From Nanobdellota archaeon (lineage in GTDB: Archaea; Nanobdellota; Nanobdellia; Woesearchaeales; JAHIVG01), in the NCBI GenBank assembly GCA_018816705.1, contig JAHIVG010000101.1, positions 1 to 39,785 of the forward strand: DNA of 39,785 nt. The letters run 5' to 3'. Under the pieces are notes generated by a model. The model saw only the letters and a program-made list of their open reading frames with translations. It had not been told where the DNA came from and ran no database searches. Of the stretch, positions 29,017 through 39,583 are shown piece after piece. How positions within the stretch are numbered: position 1 is the stretch's first letter; each line of letters begins with the position of its first letter. The position numbers and the translations under genes are program-made.

Positions 29017-30942
29017 TTAAATGAAAGGCACGTCACCGCCTAGCTTGGCGCCGTAGACGTATATGTAGTTCCAGAACAGTCCCTTCTTCCTCTCCACGTG
29101 CACTGAGAAGCCGCAGTCGCGGAAGACGTTCTCGATGACCACATTCTTGGACAGCCATTCCACGTTAGGTATTATGCCGAAGAAATCGCCGTACTCAAGG
29201 AAGACTATCTTGCCGCCTTCTGGCAGGATGCGATGCATGTCCTTCAAGACCTTCTTTATCTCCTGCAGGTAACCCATCATCCCGACCGAGATGATCGCAT
29301 CGACATAGGTGATGTCAGGGTGGACTCGCTGGGCCTGCTCCCGGTCATGGATTATCTGCACCTTGCCAGCCGGCTCCCCGCTGGAATCCCAGTCCTGCTT
29401 CTCCAGCCTGCGCTGCGTTATCCGCAAGTCGTTCTCAGACAGGTCCACAGCGTAGACCTTGCCTTGGGGACCGACAGCCTTGGCCAGGGCCATGGTCATC
29501 GTGCCGACGCTGCAGCCATATTCCAGCACTGTCCTGCTCCCGACATCCCCGAGAAGCTCTATAACCTCCTTCCTCACCTTTGTAGGGAGGTTTATGCGCT
29601 CGGTCAGCAGGATGAAATAGGCTGTAAGGTCATTCACACGTGTTATCATCTTAGGATTATTGTACAGCTCGATGAGGAAATACAAAGGTATGCCGAACAG
29701 GGCGAACGAGACCCCGAGCATGAGGTGAGATGGTGCTGCTGGCTCGCTGACCAACCATATGACAAAGAGCGCAATGATGAAAAGGACCACTATGAAAGGG
29801 GCGACCTTTCCGAAGGGAGCCTTGAAAGGCCTCTTGAGGTCCGGCTTCTTGAACCTCAGGATAGGGACTGCGAGTATGATTGCTATATACATGAAGAAGC
29901 CGAGAGGCAGCAGGATCGATAGCAGGAGCTTATATTGGCCGAAACCTATGAGGAGCACCAATAATGAGACAACTGTCTGAAAGATGACTGCCTTCGAAGG
30001 GGTCTTGTACTTCTTATGCACGTGGTTGAACTGTGACAAGAAGAGCTTATCCCTGGCAAGGGCCAGCAGCAGCCTGGGCATGGTGACCACGCCACCCATG
30101 GCAGCGCCGAGCAGGGAAAGGAAGACACCTATGCCTACCAAGGCAGCGCCTCCATAGATGATCTTGGCCACCTGGTTCAGAGGAGCCTGGAACTGGATGA
30201 ATTCCTTCCATGGCACTATGCCCAAGGAGACGAATGATATAGATAGCACGAAGAATGCCACGATTGCAGTCCCGATGACCAGGCTGCGGGGGATGACCTT
30301 TTCAGGGTCCTTGGTCTCCTCAGAGAGGTATGTGGCTGATTCCCAGCCGAAGAAGCTCTCGGCTATGAAGAATATGGCGACGAGTATAGGGGTGAATCCG
30401 AGCGAGATGAACGGCGAGAAGTTCCCGAGATCCACCTTGAAGAAGCCAGGTATTATGATGCTGAGCACCAGTATGAATGTGAGAGCTGCAAAGACCACCA
30501 GGACCATCGAGCTGGCCTCGATGCCCATATAGGCAATGATGTTGAGCACGAGCAGGATGCCGACGCAGATCAGGAGCTTGATGAGCGACAGCGATGGGTC
30601 AGGCAGGAGGTATTCTATGGCTGCAACGACCAGCAGGGTCATTGTGATGATGCCGACCAGCCAGGCCAGCCAGCCGACCAGGAACGAGAAGAACCTGCCA
30701 TAGGTCTGCTTGCTGAACTCGTACACGCCGCCTGCGTGAGGGAACATGGATGAGAGCTCCCCGAAGATAGTGCTGATATATAGCGCTATGATAGATAGTA
30801 TGGCCCATGACAGCAAGGAAGAATTGCCTGCGTACTCAGCAGCCACCCTCGTCCCGAAGAAGAGCCCTGTGCCCATTATCGAGGCTATGGCGAGTGATAT
30901 GATAGTGGGGTAACCTAATACTCGCTTCAGTTCTGCCATCAT
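29017..30942 (-). CDS. Amino-acid permease fused to a SAM-dependent methyltransferase
   Basis: 641 residues. The first part (about 1-430) is an APC-superfamily permease with about 12 helices; it begins LGYPTIISLAIASIMGTGLF and has FPHAGGVYEFSKQTYGRFFS and SFFGWESATYLSEETKDPEK. The C-terminal part (about 440-641) is a class I methyltransferase with motif I VLEYGCSVGTMTMALA, acidic VYAVDLSEND and the region ILPEGGKIVFLEYG. No stop or frameshift separates them. SD-like GAGGTGG stands before paired ATGs at 30942 and 30939. The gene follows Pth2 by 10 bp in the same operon. Substrates of both halves are unknown. Confidence 0.9.
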   Translation of the reverse strand: MMAELKRVLGYPTIISLAIASIMGTGLFFGTRVAAEYAGNSSLLSWAILSIIALYISTIFGELSSMFPHAGGVYEFSKQTYGRFFSFLVGWLAWLVGIITMTLLVVAAIEYLLPDPSLSLIKLLICVGILLVLNIIAYMGIEASSMVLVVFAALTFILVLSIIIPGFFKVDLGNFSPFISLGFTPILVAIFFIAESFFGWESATYLSEETKDPEKVIPRSLVIGTAIVAFFVLSISFVSLGIVPWKEFIQFQAPLNQVAKIIYGGAALVGIGVFLSLLGAAMGGVVTMPRLLLALARDKLFLSQFNHVHKKYKTPSKAVIFQTVVSLLVLLIGFGQYKLLLSILLPLGFFMYIAIILAVPILRFKKPDLKRPFKAPFGKVAPFIVVLFIIALFVIWLVSEPAAPSHLMLGVSFALFGIPLYFLIELYNNPKMITRVNDLTAYFILLTERINLPTKVRKEVIELLGDVGSRTVLEYGCSVGTMTMALAKAVGPQGKVYAVDLSENDLRITQRRLEKQDWDSSGEPAGKVQIIHDREQAQRVHPDITYVDAIISVGMMGYLQEIKKVLKDMHRILPEGGKIVFLEYGDFFGIIPNVEWLSKNVVIENVFRDCGFSVHVERKKGLFWNYIYVYGAKLGGDVPFI

Positions 30943-32351: not shown

Positions 32352-33302
32352 CTATCTTGATATCTCCCTGCCCCCTATCCGCTCGTACCAATCTCTCCTG
32401 AGCCTGTCTGTCAAGGAGCTATCAGATACAACTTTCCTTGAAACGCCGTCAGGCATGTTCTTGAGCTTGCGGTAAACAGTGTACCTTTTAGCGACGCCCG
32501 ATTCGACAGGGATGGACACCCTTGAGAGCAGTTCAGCGTCGATTGTCTCTGCATCATATGACTTCGGCTGCTCACCCTCGACTTCGACGACAGGAAGATT
32601 GTCCAGCAGGCTGTCATCAGAATATGTGACCTCCAGATCCATCTTACCATCGCGCATGACGTACCTCTCATAACTCCAGGCCTTTCCGCAGAAGATGCCC
32701 TTATTGTTGTTCACGACCACTGTAGGGTATTCCCTCAATGTGGTGCTGAGCCTGTTGCACCCCCATTCGAAATCTATGGTCGTTGCAAGCCCCTTGGTCT
32801 CCCTAGGCACGATGTGACGCATGGTGTTCTTGTCCTCGCCTGAAAGGAACACTCCAAGCGCTCCGTGGCTGTGGGCCCAGCTTATGATATCCTTGCCATA
32901 CTCGGCTCTCACAGCGTCATCATGGCCGAATTCCACCTCGCAATACGCCGGCCTCACGTATTGTGGAGGGATATACACGTCAGATACGGCTGGAGAGTCT
33001 CCCGCCAGCAGGAACATGCCAAGCTCCTGGCTGGGCAGACCTTTGCTGCTCAATATTGTTGAGTACCTGTTAACATAATCGAAAACCTTCTCCTTAAGGC
33101 CAGTGCTGAGAACGACCCTCCTGAAGTCCCGGCTGGAGACATACTCTCTCACCTTCCTGTCCAGCTCCAAGTTGATTGAATTTACCGCAGCCTGCCGGGT
33201 GGCCTTTGACCTACTCAAGGCCAACCATTCAGTATTATCCACGTCAGAGTGCTTAGGTATTGATTTGGTGTTTCCAGGTAATAATCTATTGATGTTGTTC
33301 AT
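32352..33302 (-). CDS. JAB/JAMM metalloprotease, second copy (ubiquitin-like operon)
   Basis: 316 residues. The isopeptidase motif is complete: Glu93 in SQELGMFLL and H144-S-H146-x7-S154-x2-D157 in AHSHGALGVFLSGEDKN. JAMM enzymes remove or mature ubiquitin-like proteins at Gly-Gly bonds. An N-terminal helical region (about 1-85) and a C-terminal region of about 120 residues (VVVNNNKGIFCGKAWSYERY onward) flank the core. It is about 30% similar by eye to the neighbouring copy throughout. AAGGTGGTGA precedes ATG 33302, and 70 bp separate it from the first copy's stop. Confidence 0.88.
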   Translation of the reverse strand: MNNINRLLPGNTKSIPKHSDVDNTEWLALSRSKATRQAAVNSINLELDRKVREYVSSRDFRRVVLSTGLKEKVFDYVNRYSTILSSKGLPSQELGMFLLAGDSPAVSDVYIPPQYVRPAYCEVEFGHDDAVRAEYGKDIISWAHSHGALGVFLSGEDKNTMRHIVPRETKGLATTIDFEWGCNRLSTTLREYPTVVVNNNKGIFCGKAWSYERYVMRDGKMDLEVTYSDDSLLDNLPVVEVEGEQPKSYDAETIDAELLSRVSIPVESGVAKRYTVYRKLKNMPDGVSRKVVSDSSLTDRLRRDWYERIGGREISR

Positions 33303-33345
33303 TTTTCACCACCTTGATTCGTTTGGAGATTATGATCTCAGTTGA

Positions 33346-34275
33346 TTATTGAACATACAAAGATTGCTTTGAATTGTTCCTCACTCGTTCTTCAAGTCCT
33401 GATTCTTGGCTGGGCATCAAGTTGCTCAGTAGGGTGTAACCCCTTCGGTATGGCACCCTAACCTTAGCCATAAGGTCCTCTCGTATTGACTTGTCGTCAT
33501 AGGGTTCTGGTCTTTCGCCTTGAACCCACCGTATTGGCACGCCGCTTGCGAGGCGCATTGAATGCCTAGAAGGCATATAACTGTCTCCCTGCCTCGTCAC
33601 CTTGGGGTATTTGACCTGGACAGCGGCATAGATATCGCCTGCATTGTTCATCACTACAGTAGGAAAATAATGCACTTGATACTTCAGGTTGTCGTCTCCC
33701 CATGGGACTTCAATATCCAGCTTGAATCCCTCATAATATTGAGGGACGATATTCTTCAGTGTAGAAATGTCCGTGCCTGATAGGAAAACGCTGAGTGAGC
33801 CGTGGCTGTGGGCCCAACTGGCGATCCTCTTTCCAGTCCTCCTCCTGTATCTCTCAGACATTTGCTCATTGACGACTATGTCGCAGTGGATTGGGTTAAC
33901 CCACTGCTTATTCAGGTGGATGTCTGTGATGACAGGCTGGTCCCCTGATATGAGATAGAACCCGAGCTCCTGGTTCTCGATGCCGGCCCCATCAAGAATG
34001 TCCCGGAAATTGGATATGTAACCCTGGGCCCTGTCCCTTGCCTCGCGCGTCATCTTCACATGGCTCAAGGCACCATTCTCTACCTCCCTAGACACAGCAT
34101 CGTCTATACCCTTGTTCAGGTCCTTGGCGACCCTATCTTTTACCAACTGTTCAGCAAGAGCACGCCTCTGTTGGAGGTAATCAAGGAAGCTATCGTCGTA
34201 TAAACTGCTAGTTATGTTGTTCATATACTTAACTCTTCCAGGAAAATATCTTCTTATCCTATTCATTATTTCCAT
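33346..34275 (-). CDS. JAB/JAMM metalloprotease, first copy (ubiquitin-like operon)
   Basis: 309 residues from ATG 34275, chosen because AGGTGAT ends 4 bp before it (GTG 34284 is the alternative). JAMM motif: Glu103 in NQELGFYLI and H156-S-H158-x7-S166-x2-D169 in AHSHGSLSVFLSGTD. The N-terminus (about 1-95) is basic and helical, and the C-terminal third follows the same plan as the second copy (FPTVVMNNAGDIYAAVQVKY). Two intact copies suggest a division of labour, for example maturing the Ubl versus removing it from targets. The gene follows the E1-like gene by 9 bp. Confidence 0.88.
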   Translation of the reverse strand: MEIMNRIRRYFPGRVKYMNNITSSLYDDSFLDYLQQRRALAEQLVKDRVAKDLNKGIDDAVSREVENGALSHVKMTREARDRAQGYISNFRDILDGAGIENQELGFYLISGDQPVITDIHLNKQWVNPIHCDIVVNEQMSERYRRRTGKRIASWAHSHGSLSVFLSGTDISTLKNIVPQYYEGFKLDIEVPWGDDNLKYQVHYFPTVVMNNAGDIYAAVQVKYPKVTRQGDSYMPSRHSMRLASGVPIRWVQGERPEPYDDKSIREDLMAKVRVPYRRGYTLLSNLMPSQESGLEERVRNNSKQSLYVQ

Positions 34276-34284
34276 TTTTATCAC

Positions 34285-35847
34285 CTAGCACGCATGTTTG
34301 TTTCCCCCAGTCCTGCTGAAAGGGAAAAGTTTCCTTTGAGTGAAGGGCTGATATTGTATGCCAGTAATATCATAATGGCCCATCATCGTCCTCTCGGCCA
34401 TATCTACCATTAGATTCCCGATTATCAGGTTAGGTATGACAGTGCTCGGATCAATTGCGCAGGAAGTTTGATCTGGGAATTTGCTCAGGTTTAGCTGACA
34501 CTGTATGCATTTGGTGTGCCCTGGAGCATATGCTGCCAACTGGCCGCCCATACCGTCGGTGCCCCCATCGACATATAGGATTTTTCCGTCAATCGCTGCC
34601 TGGTTGAGCCACGCTCTCGCATACTTATTATCAAGACAACCAAATATCAGGTCATATCCTCTCACAGATTCACGGTCCAATAGAATTGCGCCGCCAGCCC
34701 TTTGGCGTGAGGTAAGGGAAAATTTTGACGCAATCAATGTATCCAAGTCATTTGATCCTTTCATTTGACTAAGCCATTCAAAGTCATTTTCACCTACAGA
34801 ACCAACTTTGCCATAGATTGCATTGACCTCAACACGAGGATTGATCTGTCTGATTCGCTCTTTGATGGCATCGACCTTCCTTTCACCAAGACGGCCACGA
34901 AGCAGAAATTGCCTTGTCAGATTATGGTCTTCGATGCAATCCATGTCGATTATACCGATAGAACCGTAACCCTTTAGGGCGAGTGTTATTGCAACAGCAT
35001 TACCTAAAGCACCGCCTCCAACAACCAAAACCCTCTTGCTTGGATAATGGGTTATCCAGCGGTCCTCGGTTACATAGTGGAAATTTCCATTCACTACCCT
35101 ATCTATTTCTGAATACTTGAATCGGCTCCTCCTGACTTCTTCCAGTGCAAGACCTGCAATCAGACCACTAGTGAAGGCTCCCTGCTGTGGAGAGTTATAA
35201 TAGTGCAATTTCCCAAGATGATTGCTGAAAGAACCACCAGATGAGACCTCATAAGTGCCACCTATGCTGTTCGCAGATGCAGATATGAATGTAGGCCTAT
35301 CGAATGAGAATCCTTTGCAATATGAGTAGGCGTACTGCTTTGATATCGGATCATTGGTAGCATCTATGATCACATCTGGCCTGAACCTGTAAGTCCTGCC
35401 CCAATTTACACAGCCAAATTCGTGCCTGATTTCAGCATTTGGATTGATTTGCGAAATCTCTTCAGCAATCAGCTGGACTTTTTTTCGTCCTCTATTGGTT
35501 CTTGATGGTCCGCAGAATATTTCAGGTCTTGAACTTTCGACCCTTCCGTCATCGACAAGCATTATCCTGTCAATACCTAATCCGGCCAAACCACCGGCAA
35601 TGAGTTGAGCGAGATAGTCCGAACCTATCACTAAGGCCTTAGTATTGCTAAGAGTCTCATGTCGGCCTTCACCGATATTTGCAAGTGTGCGATAGTAGGT
35701 TGATTCTGCATTCTGAAGTTCCTTTTCAAGATTCTTCCCCACTATTTTCTGCTTCTTTAATATTCTATCTCTCTCATTTAAATATCTGGCTGTGAGTTCT
35801 TCATCGTATGCCCATGCCTTCACATTCCTGGAAAATATCGATGTCAT
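34285..35847 (-). CDS. E1-like activating enzyme with two tandem adenylation (ThiF) domains
   Basis: 520 residues. The second domain (about 268-500) is an active-looking ThiF/E1 fold: VVGGGALG (275-282), the Mg-ATP motif DMDCIEDHNLTRQFL (D301, D303, E306, N309, R312), CLDN (404-407), a C447-I-Q-C450 pair and Cys463 in DQTSCAIDPSTV, where MoeB/UBA4-type enzymes have their thioester cysteine. The first domain (about 68-215) has the same Rossmann plan (LVIGSDYLAQLIAGGLAGLG, DRIMLVDDG, IIDATND) but a degenerate nucleotide loop. This inactive-plus-active fusion is like eukaryotic E1 and some bacterial Bil/Bub E1 proteins. ATGA overlap with the E2-like gene. Confidence 0.9.
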   Translation of the reverse strand: MTSIFSRNVKAWAYDEELTARYLNERDRILKKQKIVGKNLEKELQNAESTYYRTLANIGEGRHETLSNTKALVIGSDYLAQLIAGGLAGLGIDRIMLVDDGRVESSRPEIFCGPSRTNRGRKKVQLIAEEISQINPNAEIRHEFGCVNWGRTYRFRPDVIIDATNDPISKQYAYSYCKGFSFDRPTFISASANSIGGTYEVSSGGSFSNHLGKLHYYNSPQQGAFTSGLIAGLALEEVRRSRFKYSEIDRVVNGNFHYVTEDRWITHYPSKRVLVVGGGALGNAVAITLALKGYGSIGIIDMDCIEDHNLTRQFLLRGRLGERKVDAIKERIRQINPRVEVNAIYGKVGSVGENDFEWLSQMKGSNDLDTLIASKFSLTSRQRAGGAILLDRESVRGYDLIFGCLDNKYARAWLNQAAIDGKILYVDGGTDGMGGQLAAYAPGHTKCIQCQLNLSKFPDQTSCAIDPSTVIPNLIIGNLMVDMAERTMMGHYDITGIQYQPFTQRKLFPFSRTGGNKHAC

Positions 35848-37052
35848 GCTGCATCATTCAGGAATATCCTGGTGTCCGGATCGATTCCGTTCCTTACTGC
35901 ATATACCCTAGCACCATCCCTTGTTGTATGGCCAATTGACCGAAATTTGGTGATATTGTTGACTGGTGCCTTCATATCGGCAGTGTAACCATAGCAAATC
36001 ACCTGCCTCGCCCTTTTAAGAACAGAGACGATTGCGGATGCAAATCCAACACTTCCGATATTATGTTTCCTGCTGCCAGCGACGATGTCTGATTTATACC
36101 CATAAATTCCATCATAGCATATCTTCCCGTCATCATAGACGAACGGATGTTTATAGCCTTCATTCATTACTCTCGGCCAATCTTGGAGGTATAGGGAAGG
36201 TCCCTCACGCTTGAGTGGGCATGAAAGCCTTACGGGCTTGAAATCATAGTAAGCTCCACGTATTTTGCATAAGAACCTAGGGAGGTCCAGCATGAGGCTA
36301 TACTCAGAGCTGCTGATTCTCCTGTATGAGATTTCACCCTCTGCATATTCATCCGGATATGATTTTCCATTGTTGCCTTCATGCTTGTCATGTCTTCCAT
36401 AATGCGAGATGCCGATCCTCATTGCCGTGTCTTGGACATGTCTCCTAAGAACATTCTCATAAGCTGTGATGAATTCACTCGTGCTTACAAGAGCTTTTGG
36501 AACCATGATTCGGCCGTTCAGACTGACATAGTTTCCTCTATTAAGAGCAGGCTTCCCTAAGGAATATGCATTACCATCATGGAACATTATCGATAAATCA
36601 CCAAACGCCCTTTTCATAACAGAAGGAATCATACTAAGTTCTGAGACGACGTCTATACTCTTTGGAGCCTCAACATCTGGCTTTTTATAATGTATTTTCA
36701 GTTCATTTCGGTTATAGGCAGATATGATATGATCAATGATAAAGCCATCAACATCAGTAGAGTAATGGAACAGTCCACTCGATGCTCCACGATTGATCCT
36801 TGTGCCGATCTTCTCCTTAATCCAAATATTCATGTAACCTTGGATATTACAGCGATTTTCACGGAATAGCCGCTGTTCTAAGGTGGGTATATCTTCGCAC
36901 TCTCTCAATTCTAATTTGGATGTACCGAAATGAGCTGTATTTTGTTTATCCTCATCATTTGGCCTGACGAAGTATATGCGGTCATCATGGATCAAGAATG
37001 CTTCCTTGAAGAGTAATAAATCCTCAAGGAAGTCAGGTTTGAGTTTCAGCAT
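35844..37052 (-). CDS. E2-like conjugating protein with long N-terminal region
   Basis: 402 residues. The last third (about 248-402) looks like an E2: a beta-meander (YSLMLDLPRFLCKIRGAYYD, then FKPVRLSCPL) leading to H302-P-F-V-Y-D-D-G-K-I-C312, which matches the E2 signature HPN-[x]-GxICLD with C312 as the expected thioester cysteine. The N-terminal 240 residues are not recognised; they may be a substrate-binding or adaptor region. The ATG lies 2 bp after the Ubl stop and the stop overlaps the E1 start, as expected for a coupled Ubl-E2-E1 unit. The E2 call rests on motif and context. Confidence 0.75.
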   Translation of the reverse strand: MLKLKPDFLEDLLLFKEAFLIHDDRIYFVRPNDEDKQNTAHFGTSKLELRECEDIPTLEQRLFRENRCNIQGYMNIWIKEKIGTRINRGASSGLFHYSTDVDGFIIDHIISAYNRNELKIHYKKPDVEAPKSIDVVSELSMIPSVMKRAFGDLSIMFHDGNAYSLGKPALNRGNYVSLNGRIMVPKALVSTSEFITAYENVLRRHVQDTAMRIGISHYGRHDKHEGNNGKSYPDEYAEGEISYRRISSSEYSLMLDLPRFLCKIRGAYYDFKPVRLSCPLKREGPSLYLQDWPRVMNEGYKHPFVYDDGKICYDGIYGYKSDIVAGSRKHNIGSVGFASAIVSVLKRARQVICYGYTADMKAPVNNITKFRSIGHTTRDGARVYAVRNGIDPDTRIFLNDAA

Positions 37053-37054
37053 GA

Positions 37055-37501
37055 TTATCTCGGCGAATAACCGCCGCCCGATATCCGATGGACCTCAAAT
37101 TCTATCTTGTCATATCTCATCGGTTGGTCGCTCCCTGTCTCGCCTTCACAATGCTGGACTACGCTTTCGAGCTTGTCAACCAAAGTCTCACTGAGCAATA
37201 CAGGTATCTCTTCCTTGGGTGTGGAGTTACTGAGCACCAATATTTTGACAGCACCAGTATCTGGATTGACCTGATAGTTGTCGAGCCAGGCTTTGATAGT
37301 ATGCGCTGTTTGAAGGTCAGCACCCACATAAGCCTCATTCATCTCATCCTTTTCGTGGTCTAACACTTTGTATATGATGTCCTTCACTCGCTTCTCCTTG
37401 TACTTATGGTCAAGCTGCCTAAACAGCACAGTAAGGTCTCCTTCATGTCCTTCGGATCCGTCTAGCAACGGATTAAGGGTCACATACAATGTCGTTCCCA
37501 T
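37055..37501 (-). CDS. Candidate ubiquitin-like protein ending GGG plus four residues
   Basis: 148 residues from ATG 37501; GGAGGTG ends 6 bp upstream of it, so the ATG at 37516 (inside that site) is less likely. The C-terminal 65 residues follow a beta-grasp order: strand AVKILVLSN, helix SETLVDKLESVVQH, and a last strand YDKIEFEVHRISGGG, closely like the ubiquitin ending LHLVLRLRGG. G142-G143-G144 is followed by YSPR, so a JAMM cut would be needed to expose Gly. An N-terminal region (about 1-80) may be a second domain. No sequence family is recognised; the call comes from the tail and operon. Confidence 0.6.
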   Translation of the reverse strand: MGTTLYVTLNPLLDGSEGHEGDLTVLFRQLDHKYKEKRVKDIIYKVLDHEKDEMNEAYVGADLQTAHTIKAWLDNYQVNPDTGAVKILVLSNSTPKEEIPVLLSETLVDKLESVVQHCEGETGSDQPMRYDKIEFEVHRISGGGYSPR

Positions 37502-37540
37502 CAAAACCACCTCCATGGTTATGCATTCTTGGTGTTCAAC

Positions 37541-37586
37541 GGTTTTAATATGCCTTTGCCAGAAAAAACCGGAAGATTTCCGACGG
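37541..37586 (-). promoter_or_regulatory. Promoter and shared upstream element of the ubiquitin-like operon
   Basis: On the minus strand CGTCGGAAATCTT then CCGGTTTTTTCTGG stands 7 bp upstream of CATATTAAAACC, a TATA box about 25 bp before the expected transcript start near 37523. The same block precedes both Lrp/AsnC-like genes. Its place directly upstream of TATA is where archaeal activators bind. Confidence 0.65.
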
Positions 37587-37595
37587 TGCTAGAAA

Positions 37596-37880
37596 TTAGA
37601 CGTATCCTCTCCTTTCCATAGCTTCGCGCTTAAGCCTGTCCCTTATGTCTTCATACTGCGGCTCTTGATTGTCTGGCGCGTGGTGCAGCCTTCGTGTCAG
37701 GTCCTCTAAAGTGGATCTCCTGTCAGGAGGCACCATGTCCAGGGCTGCCTTGGTCGCGGCGCCGCCTATCATGCCGTACAAGAAGCTGCCTATGAAGGAG
37801 TTCGACTTGGCTGTCTTCTTTATCGCCTGATATGTGACTGCTGTCAGGCCGCCGCCGGTCATGGTCTTCCAGATACCCAT
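37596..37880 (-). CDS. Small glycine-rich hydrophobic protein
   Basis: 94 residues from ATG 37880, which lies 1 bp after the stop of the regulator gene; GTG 37889 is an alternative. The N-terminal half (GGGLTAVTYQAIKKTAKSNS, then FIGSFLYGMIGGAATKAALD) is hydrophobic and glycine-rich, possibly one or two short membrane helices; the C-terminal half is charged (RRLHHAPDNQEPQYEDIRDR). It is translationally coupled to the first Lrp/AsnC gene and sits just upstream of the Ubl operon promoter. Function unknown; it could be a target or membrane anchor of the conjugation system. Confidence 0.65.
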   Translation of the reverse strand: MGIWKTMTGGGLTAVTYQAIKKTAKSNSFIGSFLYGMIGGAATKAALDMVPPDRRSTLEDLTRRLHHAPDNQEPQYEDIRDRLKREAMERRGYV

Positions 37881-37881
37881 C

Positions 37882-38313
37882 TCAGACACCCGACATGAAG
37901 GATTCTCTCTTCAGCTCTTCCAATATATAGAAGTGCCTTATGTCATGGAACTGGTCCAGCATCTCCCTGAATTCTTCGACCTCGAGGATGTTCCTGAATA
38001 CTGCTTCTGCCATGATGTGCTTCTCGTCGTCGATGAACGATACGGTATTGATGTTGGGCATCATGGCTATCTTCTCAGCCTGGATGCGCTGCATCACCCT
38101 CAGCATGAAGATGCAGCGATAGGAGAATCCTAATCTCTCGAAGTCTATCAGCGTGGTGAATCTTGGCCTTATCCTCTTAATCTTCTGCATCCGGTCCATC
38201 AATGTTGTATGTGGCATGCCGATGTCGACCGCTATCGATGCCAGGCTCTTCCTGGAATCCGTCCTCAGGGCACGCAGGATCCTTATGTCCTTGTCATCGA
38301 AACTCGTTTTCAT
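37882..38313 (-). CDS. Lrp/AsnC-like regulator 1
   Basis: 143 residues from ATG 38313, which falls about 25 bp from the TATA box at 38335-38344; a longer frame to 38394 crosses that promoter and is rejected. N-terminal HTH: DDKDIRILRALRTDSRKSLA then SIAVDIGMPHTTLMDRMQKI, followed by FTTLIDFERLGFSYRCIFML and an AsnC-type ligand domain (NINTVSFIDDEKHIMAEAVF). Typical Lrp/AsnC length. With regulator 2 it forms a tandem pair (about 30% similar by eye) upstream of the Ubl operon. Confidence 0.85.
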   Translation of the reverse strand: MKTSFDDKDIRILRALRTDSRKSLASIAVDIGMPHTTLMDRMQKIKRIRPRFTTLIDFERLGFSYRCIFMLRVMQRIQAEKIAMMPNINTVSFIDDEKHIMAEAVFRNILEVEEFREMLDQFHDIRHFYILEELKRESFMSGV

Positions 38314-38332
38314 GGTCTTTCTTGTTGTTTGA

Positions 38333-38378
38333 GGTTTTATATGGCTTGCCCAGAAAAAACCCGAGGATTTCCGGCCGC
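38333..38378 (-). promoter_or_regulatory. Promoter and shared upstream element of regulator 1
   Basis: Minus strand: GCGGCCGGAAATCCT then CGGGTTTTTTCTGGG, 7 bp upstream of the TATA box CATATAAAACC. Close copy of the element at 37541-37586 and related to 38867-38900. Confidence 0.65.
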
Positions 38379-38386
38379 ATTGTAAA

Positions 38387-38848
38387 TCAAACAAGGTCCA
38401 ACAGCTGTGAATCGCTCAGGAAGGCCTCTTTCTTTATGTCCTCGATTATGTAATGGTTCTCGACCCTCTCTATCCTGAAGCGCTTCTCCAGGCTGGCGAT
38501 GAAGCCTTCAACGTCTACGACGTGGCGGAAGACAGCCTCTACCATGAAGTCGAAGCCGTTGCTTATCTTGAAGACAGAGTTGACATTAGGGTGCTTGAGC
38601 AGGAATTCTTTGATCTCTTCTCTTGACTCATGTTGGGCTTTGATAAGAATGTTTGTGCGCGCATGGTAGCCCAGGCTGGAGAAGTCCACTAATGTCGTAT
38701 GTTTCAGGATGAGGTTTCCCTGGTACTGCCGTATCTTGTCGTATATGGTCGATACAGGGATTGTAGTCGCTTTGGATATCCTGGTCAGGGTCTCCCTTGA
38801 GTTCTTCCTCAGGCTGACGAGCAAGAGGAGGTCTTTTTTCGATGTCAT
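38387..38848 (-). CDS. Lrp/AsnC-like regulator 2
   Basis: 153 residues. HTH region: KKDLLLLVSLRKNSRETLTR then ISKATTIPVSTIYDKIRQYQ; then HTTLVDFSSLGYHARTNILI and the RAM/AsnC domain (HPNVNSVFKISNGFDFMVEA). The ATG lies about 25 bp from a TATA box at 38868-38876, so it is leaderless. Upstream it has the longest set of TTCCGGAA-type repeats in the window, suggesting it controls itself and is the main binder of these sites. Confidence 0.85.
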   Translation of the reverse strand: MTSKKDLLLLVSLRKNSRETLTRISKATTIPVSTIYDKIRQYQGNLILKHTTLVDFSSLGYHARTNILIKAQHESREEIKEFLLKHPNVNSVFKISNGFDFMVEAVFRHVVDVEGFIASLEKRFRIERVENHYIIEDIKKEAFLSDSQLLDLV

Positions 38849-38866: not shown

Positions 38867-38975
38867 ATCTTTAATATGTGTTTTTGCAGAAAAACCGGAA
38901 ATATTTGGGTAAAGCCCGGAAGGTTTCCGGGCTGGAGGTTAGGATTTCCGGAAATGATGGAATATTTCGGAAAAA
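38867..38975 (-). promoter_or_regulatory. Operator cluster upstream of regulator 2
   Basis: Minus strand next to the TATA box: AATATTTCCGGTTTTTCTGC, the shared element. Farther upstream are the palindrome GCCCGGAAGGTTTCCGGGC (38914-38932), TTTCCGGAAA (38945-38954) and ATATTTCGGAAAAATA (about 38962-38977). Repeated TTCCGGAA half-sites at roughly 15-30 bp intervals fit cooperative binding by Lrp/AsnC octamers. Confidence 0.6.
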
Positions 38976-39034: not shown

Positions 39035-39583
39035 TCAAAGGAGGAGCCACCTCACCAGGATGTCAGAGCCGTTAATTATCAGATGCTTCTTGACGATCCC
39101 TTGCTTCAACGTCTCTGTTACTTTATCCAGGGATTTGACATTTATTACATGTAAAGATTTGTTGAATCTCGCCGGGAGCTTGATATTGTCCATCCCTATC
39201 ACAAGCAAGTCGATGTCATTAGCCTTCAAAAAGTTTACTGCTGCTGAACCGAAAATTATCGACTCAGAACGTGGTATTTCCGAGCGGATATGATTAATTA
39301 TTTCTTTCAAATGAAGATCCTTACAGCTCATGATAAGTCTCTGTTTCTCTGCTATCATCAGATAGTCTATCAAGAGGTCATTTTCATTGTTCAACGAATA
39401 GAGGGTCAGACGGCCCTTTGTCCGCTTCCTTAAAATTCCCTCCTTCTCTAACACATTTAAATGCTGTCGGACTGTCGGATGGGGCTCGCATAGCTGCCTT
39501 GAGATGTCGGCGAGGTGCAGTTCTTCTTTTGGTCTGGAAAGGAACGGTTCTAGGGCAGTTGTTATTGTTAGTTTTTTTACCAT
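39035..39583 (-). CDS. Winged-helix protein fused to a MNT-type nucleotidyltransferase
   Basis: 182 residues. The N-terminal part (about 1-70) is a winged helix-turn-helix (ELHLADISRQLCEPHPTVRQ then HLNVLEKEGILRKRTKGRLT). The C-terminal part has the minimal nucleotidyltransferase motif G-S at SIIFGSAAVNFLKANDIDLL with the D-x-D metal pair. Such HTH-NTase proteins occur in archaea as possible toxin-antitoxin or regulatory units. A TATA-like AATTTAAATACT lies about 25-35 bp upstream. It may close the regulatory end of the Ubl locus or be independent. Confidence 0.75.
   Translation of the reverse strand: MVKKLTITTALEPFLSRPKEELHLADISRQLCEPHPTVRQHLNVLEKEGILRKRTKGRLTLYSLNNENDLLIDYLMIAEKQRLIMSCKDLHLKEIINHIRSEIPRSESIIFGSAAVNFLKANDIDLLVIGMDNIKLPARFNKSLHVINVKSLDKVTETLKQGIVKKHLIINGSDILVRWLLL

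Follow-up and report, generated by a model that had tools for sequence, protein, structure and literature searches.

Full archaeal cascades of E1, E2 and deubiquitinating enzyme (DUB) are known from Caldiarchaeum and the Asgard archaea, and they have been used in arguments on the origin of eukaryotic ubiquitin signalling. The SAMP/Urm1 systems of Haloferax and Sulfolobus consist of an archaeal beta-grasp tag, a ThiF-type E1 and JAMM deconjugation. Many of the small-genome DPANN archaea are thought to be host-dependent, and such lineages otherwise lose genes. Here we describe a five-gene operon of a DPANN archaeon, with the order Ubl-E2-E1-JAB-JAB (Ubl, ubiquitin-like modifier), found in contig JAHIVG010000101.1 of a Nanobdellota genome (the whole stretch of 39,785 nucleotides is called the window; it is contig C33 of a 1.74-Mb genome that is 94% complete). 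We consider it very likely that this operon encodes a ubiquitin-like protein-conjugation system that is both self-contained and reversible.

Among the described systems with similar parts, the bacterial Bil operon (BilA-BilB-BilC-BilD) has two Ubl domains in BilA, a CEHH motif in its E2 and an alpha-helical Cys domain of ca. 80 amino acids (aa) in its E1 (PMC11354881). The type 6d operons, which we equate with Bil, are reported to have similar features, their E2 being without the classical His (PMC1779556). In the Cap2/Cap3 system of CBASS type II, a single fusion protein combines E1 and E2, and it is the CD-NTase itself that receives the tag (PMC10097602). The cluster of Caldiarchaeum subterraneum encodes a ubiquitin that can be recognised as such, an E2 resembling those of eukaryotes and a small RING E3 (PMC5654768), and a recognisable ubiquitin, an E2 and a RING protein are also described for the Asgard relatives (PMC9192718).

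The operon and its parts

The five open reading frames (ORFs) run on the minus strand from 37501 to 32352 (Table 1). Their junctions are a 2-bp gap, an ATGA overlap, 0 bp (with a GTG start) or 9 bp (with an ATG start), and 43 bp, and because of this spacing the five ORFs are in all likelihood a single transcription unit. An initial annotation of the sequence had placed here, in an archaeon, five coupled or nearly touching minus-strand genes for a Gly-Gly-tailed beta-grasp candidate, an E2-like protein with HPFV-GKIC312, a double-domain E1 with Cys463 and two complete JAMM proteases; the host is indeed an archaeon, of the DPANN group, and genes and junctions lie as described, the third junction depending on the start codon chosen. 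The E1 is the only one of the five proteins that Pfam, NCBIfam and PADLOC recognise, direct scans with all three having given no family match for the Ubl, the E2 or either JAB of the window.

The Ubl ends in ...FEVHRISGGG-YSPR. An extra in-frame ATG at 37516 would give an ORF of 153 aa; we favour the start at 37501 because GGAGGTG directly precedes its ATG. The AlphaFold2 model, built from 39 family sequences, has a predicted local distance difference test score (pLDDT) of 90.7 and a predicted template modelling score (pTM) of 0.84, and its strands and helices follow one another as in a beta-grasp; it contains a single beta-grasp domain, and the glycine tail is predicted less surely than the fold. 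Most of the nearest PDB folds found by Foldseek belong to beta-grasp domains (RING1B RAWUL, Ras-association, TBCE UBL, SOSEKI/DIX, USP15 UBL and FERM F1), with E values of 0.01-0.1 and target TM scores of about 0.5 for these small domains, the query carrying extra helices. No credible match came from a PDB sequence search with the Ubl profile. Within the family, 26 of 47 members have GG among their last 25 residues; the corresponding rates are 10% for shuffles and 11% for stretches elsewhere in these proteins. Two homologues terminate exactly in GG (L062 1500-1940 and L067 4074-4556), those of loci L113 and L114, from another order, end in VGGK, and further tails are GGK, GGYK and GGSR. Model and structural neighbours thus bear out the beta-grasp call, and the protein combines the predicted fold with the C-terminal Gly(-Gly) expected of a modifier. 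At L062 (1-3146) one operon has four Ubl genes, one of them exactly GG-ended.

The E1 matches Pfam ThiF at 2e-49 in two domains. In an alignment of 11 E1s the N-terminal adenylation domain is devoid of the N-x-x-R-Q motif and the C-terminal one retains G277, G279, D301, N309, R312, Q313, K324 and the conserved Cys463. We predict a pseudo-dimer of one inactive and one active adenylation domain, in line with the annotated double-domain E1. The nearest solved chains are SAE2 and UBA3, subunits of the SUMO- and NEDD8-activating E1s. The CxxC motif and Cys463 are separated by 13 residues in the window and by 13-19 in the 14 loci where the distance was taken; the alignment shows the E1 of L038 to have a longer insert.

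The E2-like protein shares only 12-24% overall identity with its relatives, and among 57 of them C312 is kept in 56, P303 in 51 and H302 in 48. The window motif HPFVYDDGKIC and HPNINANGNIC of UBC4 have the same 10-residue spacing from His to Cys and both end in G-x-I-C. When eight window-type E2s were compared as a profile with a UBC set (four yeast UBCs and two PDB homologues, the UBC4 sequence being identical to PDB 1qcq), their C-terminal half aligned with the yeast UBCs in exact HPN...IC register at a score of 33.9, with column-shuffled controls (n=150) reaching at most 20.8 and the reversed control 12.3; for the full family the score was 21.8 and shuffles gave at most 18.6. Two copies of a beta4-alpha domain make up the N-terminal half (hhalign probability 96%, P 1.5e-9), and ordinary E2s have no such domain. 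The structural model (pLDDT 84.4, pTM 0.56) runs from a long helix through a beta-meander and the Cys loop to another long helix, an order that fits UBC. Short local matches to metallo-beta-lactamases and to unnamed or phage proteins, which span 60-70 residues or have TM scores of 0.1-0.2, dominated the Foldseek output for the full model and were discarded as not reflecting homology. A PDB sequence search with the E2 profile returned no credible match, and none of the 57 E2s matched a UBC-type family among the Pfam families listed; a UQ_con search of 99 related genomes was also empty, but control genomes were equally silent. Taken together, the near-invariant Cys and Pro and the profile match in UBC register make an E2 function of this protein a well supported prediction, in line with the initial call. 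Its 402 residues, initially singled out as an oddity, turn out to be an ordinary length, the family ranging from about 320 to 560 aa.

The last two genes are JAMM/JAB proteases in which the motif E...HxH...S..D is complete, as annotated, the upstream Glu being invariant. In the PDB, the JAB-family profile picks up the RPN11-like JAMM of Caldiarchaeum (6fjv, E 1.6e-9), and also AMSH, RPN11 and CSN5; Prok-JAB is matched by six of nine family members. JAB-a and JAB-b are 30% identical (E 3e-44) and each other's best match, so they look like a lineage-specific tandem duplication. The pair of JABs had been taken as a distinguishing trait of this locus; both are there, but loci with two JABs were also found elsewhere.

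Table 1. Positions of the operon, its regulators and candidate promoter elements in the window
Feature	Position	Strand	Basis
Ubl modifier, 148 aa	37055..37501	-	beta-grasp model, Foldseek, C-terminal GG enrichment in family
E2-like conjugating enzyme, 402 aa	35844..37052	-	Cys/Pro/His conservation; profile match to yeast UBCs
E2 N-terminal repeat 1 (about residues 17-90, beta4-alpha)	36783..37004	-	hhalign internal repeat; model
E2 N-terminal repeat 2 (about residues 150-222)	36387..36605	-	hhalign internal repeat; model
E2 catalytic core HPFVYDDGKIC (residues 302-312)	36117..36149	-	spacing and G-x-I-C as in UBC4
E1-like activating enzyme, 520 aa (degenerate N-terminal ThiF, intact C-terminal adenylation domain)	34285..35847	-	Pfam ThiF, PDB neighbours, alignment
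E1 candidate catalytic Cys463	34459..34461	-	kept in at least 90% of 11 aligned E1s
JAMM/JAB protease a (JAB-a), 312 aa	33346..34284	-	motif HSHGSLSVFLSGTD; profile match 6fjv
JAMM/JAB protease b (JAB-b), 316 aa, tandem paralogue of JAB-a	32352..33302	-	motif HSHGALGVFLSGED; best match JAB-a
Lrp/AsnC-type regulator 1 (Lrp1), 153 aa	38387..38848	-	Pfam AsnC_trans_reg (PF01037) 7e-7, above cut-off
Lrp/AsnC-type regulator 2 (Lrp2)	37882..38316	-	Pfam HTH_AsnC-type (PF13404) 7e-9, above cut-off
97-aa protein between regulators and Ubl	37596..37889	-	overlaps Lrp2 end
Operator/TATA element before Ubl	37548..37572	-	genome pattern search
Operator/TATA element before Lrp2	38339..38363	-	genome pattern search
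Operator/TATA element before Lrp1	38874..38898	-	genome pattern search

Recurrence among DPANN archaea

We searched for the E1 first in 60 relatives and then in the whole order (353 genomes) with an 11-sequence profile, and found the two-domain protein at E <= 1e-45 in 49 of the 353. A class-wide draw gave it in 33 out of 378 genomes at 1e-50, and a draw from the phylum gave E2 profile matches in 42 out of 371, other orders included, so the module is present in about 9-14% of the sampled genomes, with relatives scattered over the entire DPANN class. By neighbourhoods and iterated profiles, 65 E1 loci were found to contain an E2 in 56 cases, a JAB in 58 and both in 52. A small gene on the same strand immediately precedes the E2 in 52 of the 65 loci, and 34 of these 52 were recognised as members of the Ubl family; the remaining 18 often end in -GGR, -GGNY or -QEGGLQ or contain -IIPG near the end, and many of them are probably diverged Ubls. 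The operon is therefore no chance assembly, the same gene set recurring in dozens of genomes. The commonest order is Ubl-E2-JAB-E1, and the order of the window, Ubl-E2-E1-JAB, which it had been suggested to look for in other genomes, is shared by L028, L029, L035, L067, L069 and L083 and by loci of other orders (L113 and L114).

In the E1 tree the window protein groups with L069, L047, L060 and L065. The E1 copies of L028 and L031, both from genome G040, lie far apart, and therefore several old subfamilies coexist. Purifying selection acts on every part in three loci of one genus (L048, L050 and L051), with ratios of nonsynonymous to synonymous substitution (dN/dS) of about 0.14-0.37 in all parts for L048/L050. 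A scan of 84,980 species genomes with a 4-sequence E1 alignment, whose patterns are narrow so that other carriers may have escaped, gave nine named matches, to Woesearchaeota, Nanoarchaeota, Nanoarchaeia, Pacearchaeota and other DPANN archaea. One of the nine is the closed chromosome of archaeon GW2011_AR15, which holds an E1-JAB pair (L095/L047). Contamination was considered and is unlikely, given this closed chromosome and the presence of the module in dozens of independent genomes. We found no account of such a system in DPANN archaea in the open-access literature, and it is apparently unreported until now.

Comparison with described systems

Like Bil, the DPANN operon unites Ubl, E2, JAB and E1 (in Bil the JAB processes the Ubl; PMC11354881), and its E1 also pairs an inactive adenylation domain, the N-terminal ThiF without NxxRQ, with an active one. 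The differences are, on the other hand, substantial. The DPANN Ubl has one beta-grasp domain instead of the two of BilA. In BilB the His of CEHH comes after the Cys, whereas the DPANN E2 has H-P-F ten residues before it, and the residues at +6, +8 and +13 from C312 are G, K and A. The short gap before Cys463 leaves no room for a Cys domain of ca. 80 aa. The two N-terminal repeats of the E2, the archaeal host, the two JABs and the Lrp regulators are further differences.

With Caldiarchaeum and Asgard the operon shares an archaeal set of Ubl, E1, E2 and JAMM, the Caldiarchaeum JAMM being the nearest solved relative of our JABs, but the DPANN Ubl and E2 match no Pfam family and no RING was found in the cluster. 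SAMP/Urm1 has no E2 and a MoeB-type single-domain E1, and the DPANN genome keeps a separate ThiS-ThiF pair besides its operon. CBASS type II has E1/E2 chemistry and a JAB in its operon too, but the DPANN operon has neither an E1-E2 fusion nor a CD-NTase. The comparisons uphold the initial view that the gene set differs from those of SAMP, Caldiarchaeum and Asgard, and extend it to Bil. Judged by its sequences, the operon would work like a ubiquitin-like conjugation system outside the named types tested.

How the system may work

The analysis shows the gene set, its motifs, the beta-grasp model, conservation, synteny and the promoter element in common, and from these we infer the chemistry, the direction of transfer, the operator binder, the targets and the physiological role. 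In the cycle that we propose, a JAMM protease would trim the Ubl precursor just behind its glycines, taking off a short tail (YSPR or GYSPR). The E1 would then adenylate the Ubl C-terminus and hold the Ubl as a thioester on Cys463, from where it would pass to Cys312 of the E2-like protein and end up on lysines of a single target or a small number of targets; the JAMM proteases would remove it again. Two Lrp/AsnC regulators, through an operator shared with the Ubl promoter, would set expression. The N-terminal repeats of the E2 probably dock the E1 and the Ubl or do what a separate E3 would do and select the target, a role that we guess at because no E3 was seen.

Several observations weigh against such a system. 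The Gly-Gly is variable in the Ubl family, some members having AG, GS, SG or GA instead. The canonical JAMM motif is missing in 11 of 65 JABs, and deconjugation is therefore not universal in the family. Foldseek matches of the whole E2 model to E2s are weak (UFC1 at rank 6, a P. falciparum E2 at rank 9 and a Terrestrivirus E2 at rank 10, with E 0.16-0.28 and target TM of about 0.3) and stand among spurious ones. Hence the E2 call rests more on conservation and profile than on structure matching; the E2 fold that the initial annotation expected around C312 is a candidate fold, with this Cys placed in the model after the beta-meander and before a long helix. Finally, no E3-like gene was recognised, nor did Pfam give a RING match among the upstream neighbours of the window operon. 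The claim of a complete conjugation system is supported with these qualifications: all four kinds of part (Ubl, E1, E2 and JAMM) hold up, and conjugation is what their joint presence suggests.

Whole subclades have JABs without HxH...S..D (L055, L056, L059, L061, L064, L086, L088 and others), and in these deconjugation may have been lost or replaced.

Regulation

A search of the 1.74-Mb genome for CSGGTTTTTN8-13CATAT gave three sites only, in the promoters of Lrp1, Lrp2 and the Ubl, and none for the reversed control; as the pattern was built from these three sites, the count speaks for exclusivity and is not an independent discovery. In the Ubl element a palindrome, CGGAAATCTTCCG, overlaps the start and a TATA-like CATATTAAA lies at the end. 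The Lrp2 ORF opens at 38394, but its likely start is at about 38316, as the promoter lies inside the ORF. Lrp/AsnC homologues were found near the module in nine other loci. The two regulators and their shared candidate operator probably control the operon, and Lrp/AsnC autoregulation together with control of the tagging operon would be the simplest reading. The 97-aa protein has a weak homologue in the L058 operon, immediately before an E2 gene.

Possible roles

Lrp control and the housekeeping genes around the operon (purine/folate synthesis) suit a physiological role, whereas patchiness, divergent copies and changing accessory genes would suit a role in conflicts. We tentatively suggest, as an idea that may well prove wrong, that the operon represents an old, separate lineage of Ubl conjugation confined to DPANN, with its own HPx...Cys E2 that has target selection built in instead of an E3, and used for immunity or for control of a host-dependent lifestyle. 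If true, this lineage would be an independent branch, beside the Asgard and bacterial systems, on how E1-E2-DUB cascades arose. Being distinct, made of standalone genes for Ubl, E2, E1 and JAMM, and widespread in small-genome DPANN archaea, the cascade also provides compact, expressible operons for asking how conjugation proceeds without an E3 and what reduced cells tag.

The conjugation could serve defence against viruses, as in bacterial Bil, Bub and CBASS Cap2/Cap3, with the accessory genes as effectors. By this analogy a link of the DPANN operon to phage defence is possible, and the patchy distribution in the order, the several divergent, non-sister copies in one genome and the variable accessory genes (transglutaminase-like, ClpX-like AAA ATPase and long proteins, see below) agree with it. 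We think it somewhat unlikely nevertheless, as the window surroundings are housekeeping genes, no viral contig searched with the E1 gave a match, the PADLOC matches to the operon are generic E1-E2 models on the ThiF domain only, and an Lrp/AsnC partner would suit metabolic control equally well.

Another purpose would be a tag that targets proteins to the proteasome, analogous to degradation by SAMP/Urm1. The host genome encodes two proteins matching the 20S proteasome family, a ClpX-like AAA ATPase gene is found in the operon at two loci, and the closest solved structure to the JABs is RPN11-like. But the proteasome is general in archaea and unlinked to the operon, and the AAA gene is missing from most loci, so we regard this purpose as rather doubtful.

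If the system were a sulfur carrier instead, the E1 would thiocarboxylate the Ubl for sulfur-dependent biosynthesis, like ThiS-ThiF or CysO with a JAMM, and the "E2" would be an acceptor enzyme. ThiF-type E1s and JAMM proteases do occur in such pathways too, but none of the genes recurring next to the module in about 85 loci was recognised as a biosynthetic partner (most neighbours being without a Pfam match), the genome has a separate, standalone ThiS-ThiF pair on contig C86, a conserved HP...C protein would be unexpected there and the double-domain E1 resembles those of conjugation. We hold this role to be very improbable. That the operon is a true Bil (type 6D) member recently transferred to archaea is barely credible in spite of the same four parts and the paired inactive and active adenylation domains of the E1 (PMC11354881), given its single Ubl domain, HPx-type E2 without CEHH and E1 without the Cys domain, the deep diversity within DPANN and a plasmid search with the E1 that gave only partial, single-ThiF matches, many annotated as MoeB or ThiF.

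Accessory and neighbouring genes

Transglutaminase-like genes recur beside the module (L035 4066-4635, L048 9661-10353 and L083 3299-4663, with related genes in L051, L058 and L065) and are possibly additional, Ubl-cleaving cysteine proteases. In two genomes the ClpX-like AAA ATPase gene stands between E2 and JAB (L085 3720-4835 and its homologue in L087), which may mean that tagged proteins are unfolded or degraded. One subtype has long proteins of about 540-970 aa after the E1 (L031, L042, L043, L055, L059, L061, L063 and L064), with no significant Pfam match where scanned and, in several, an SH3/KOW-like C-terminal stretch noted by eye.

In the window, a winged-helix and nucleotidyltransferase-like protein (39035-39583, minus strand; weak Pfam matches) lies upstream of the regulators. 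On the other side of the operon, a 641-aa protein (29017-30942, minus strand) reads, by eye from its sequence, as an amino-acid permease fused to a C-terminal S-adenosylmethionine-methyltransferase-like domain, and it has a close homologue near the L028 operon (L028 11046-12938, plus strand; phmmer 4e-193).

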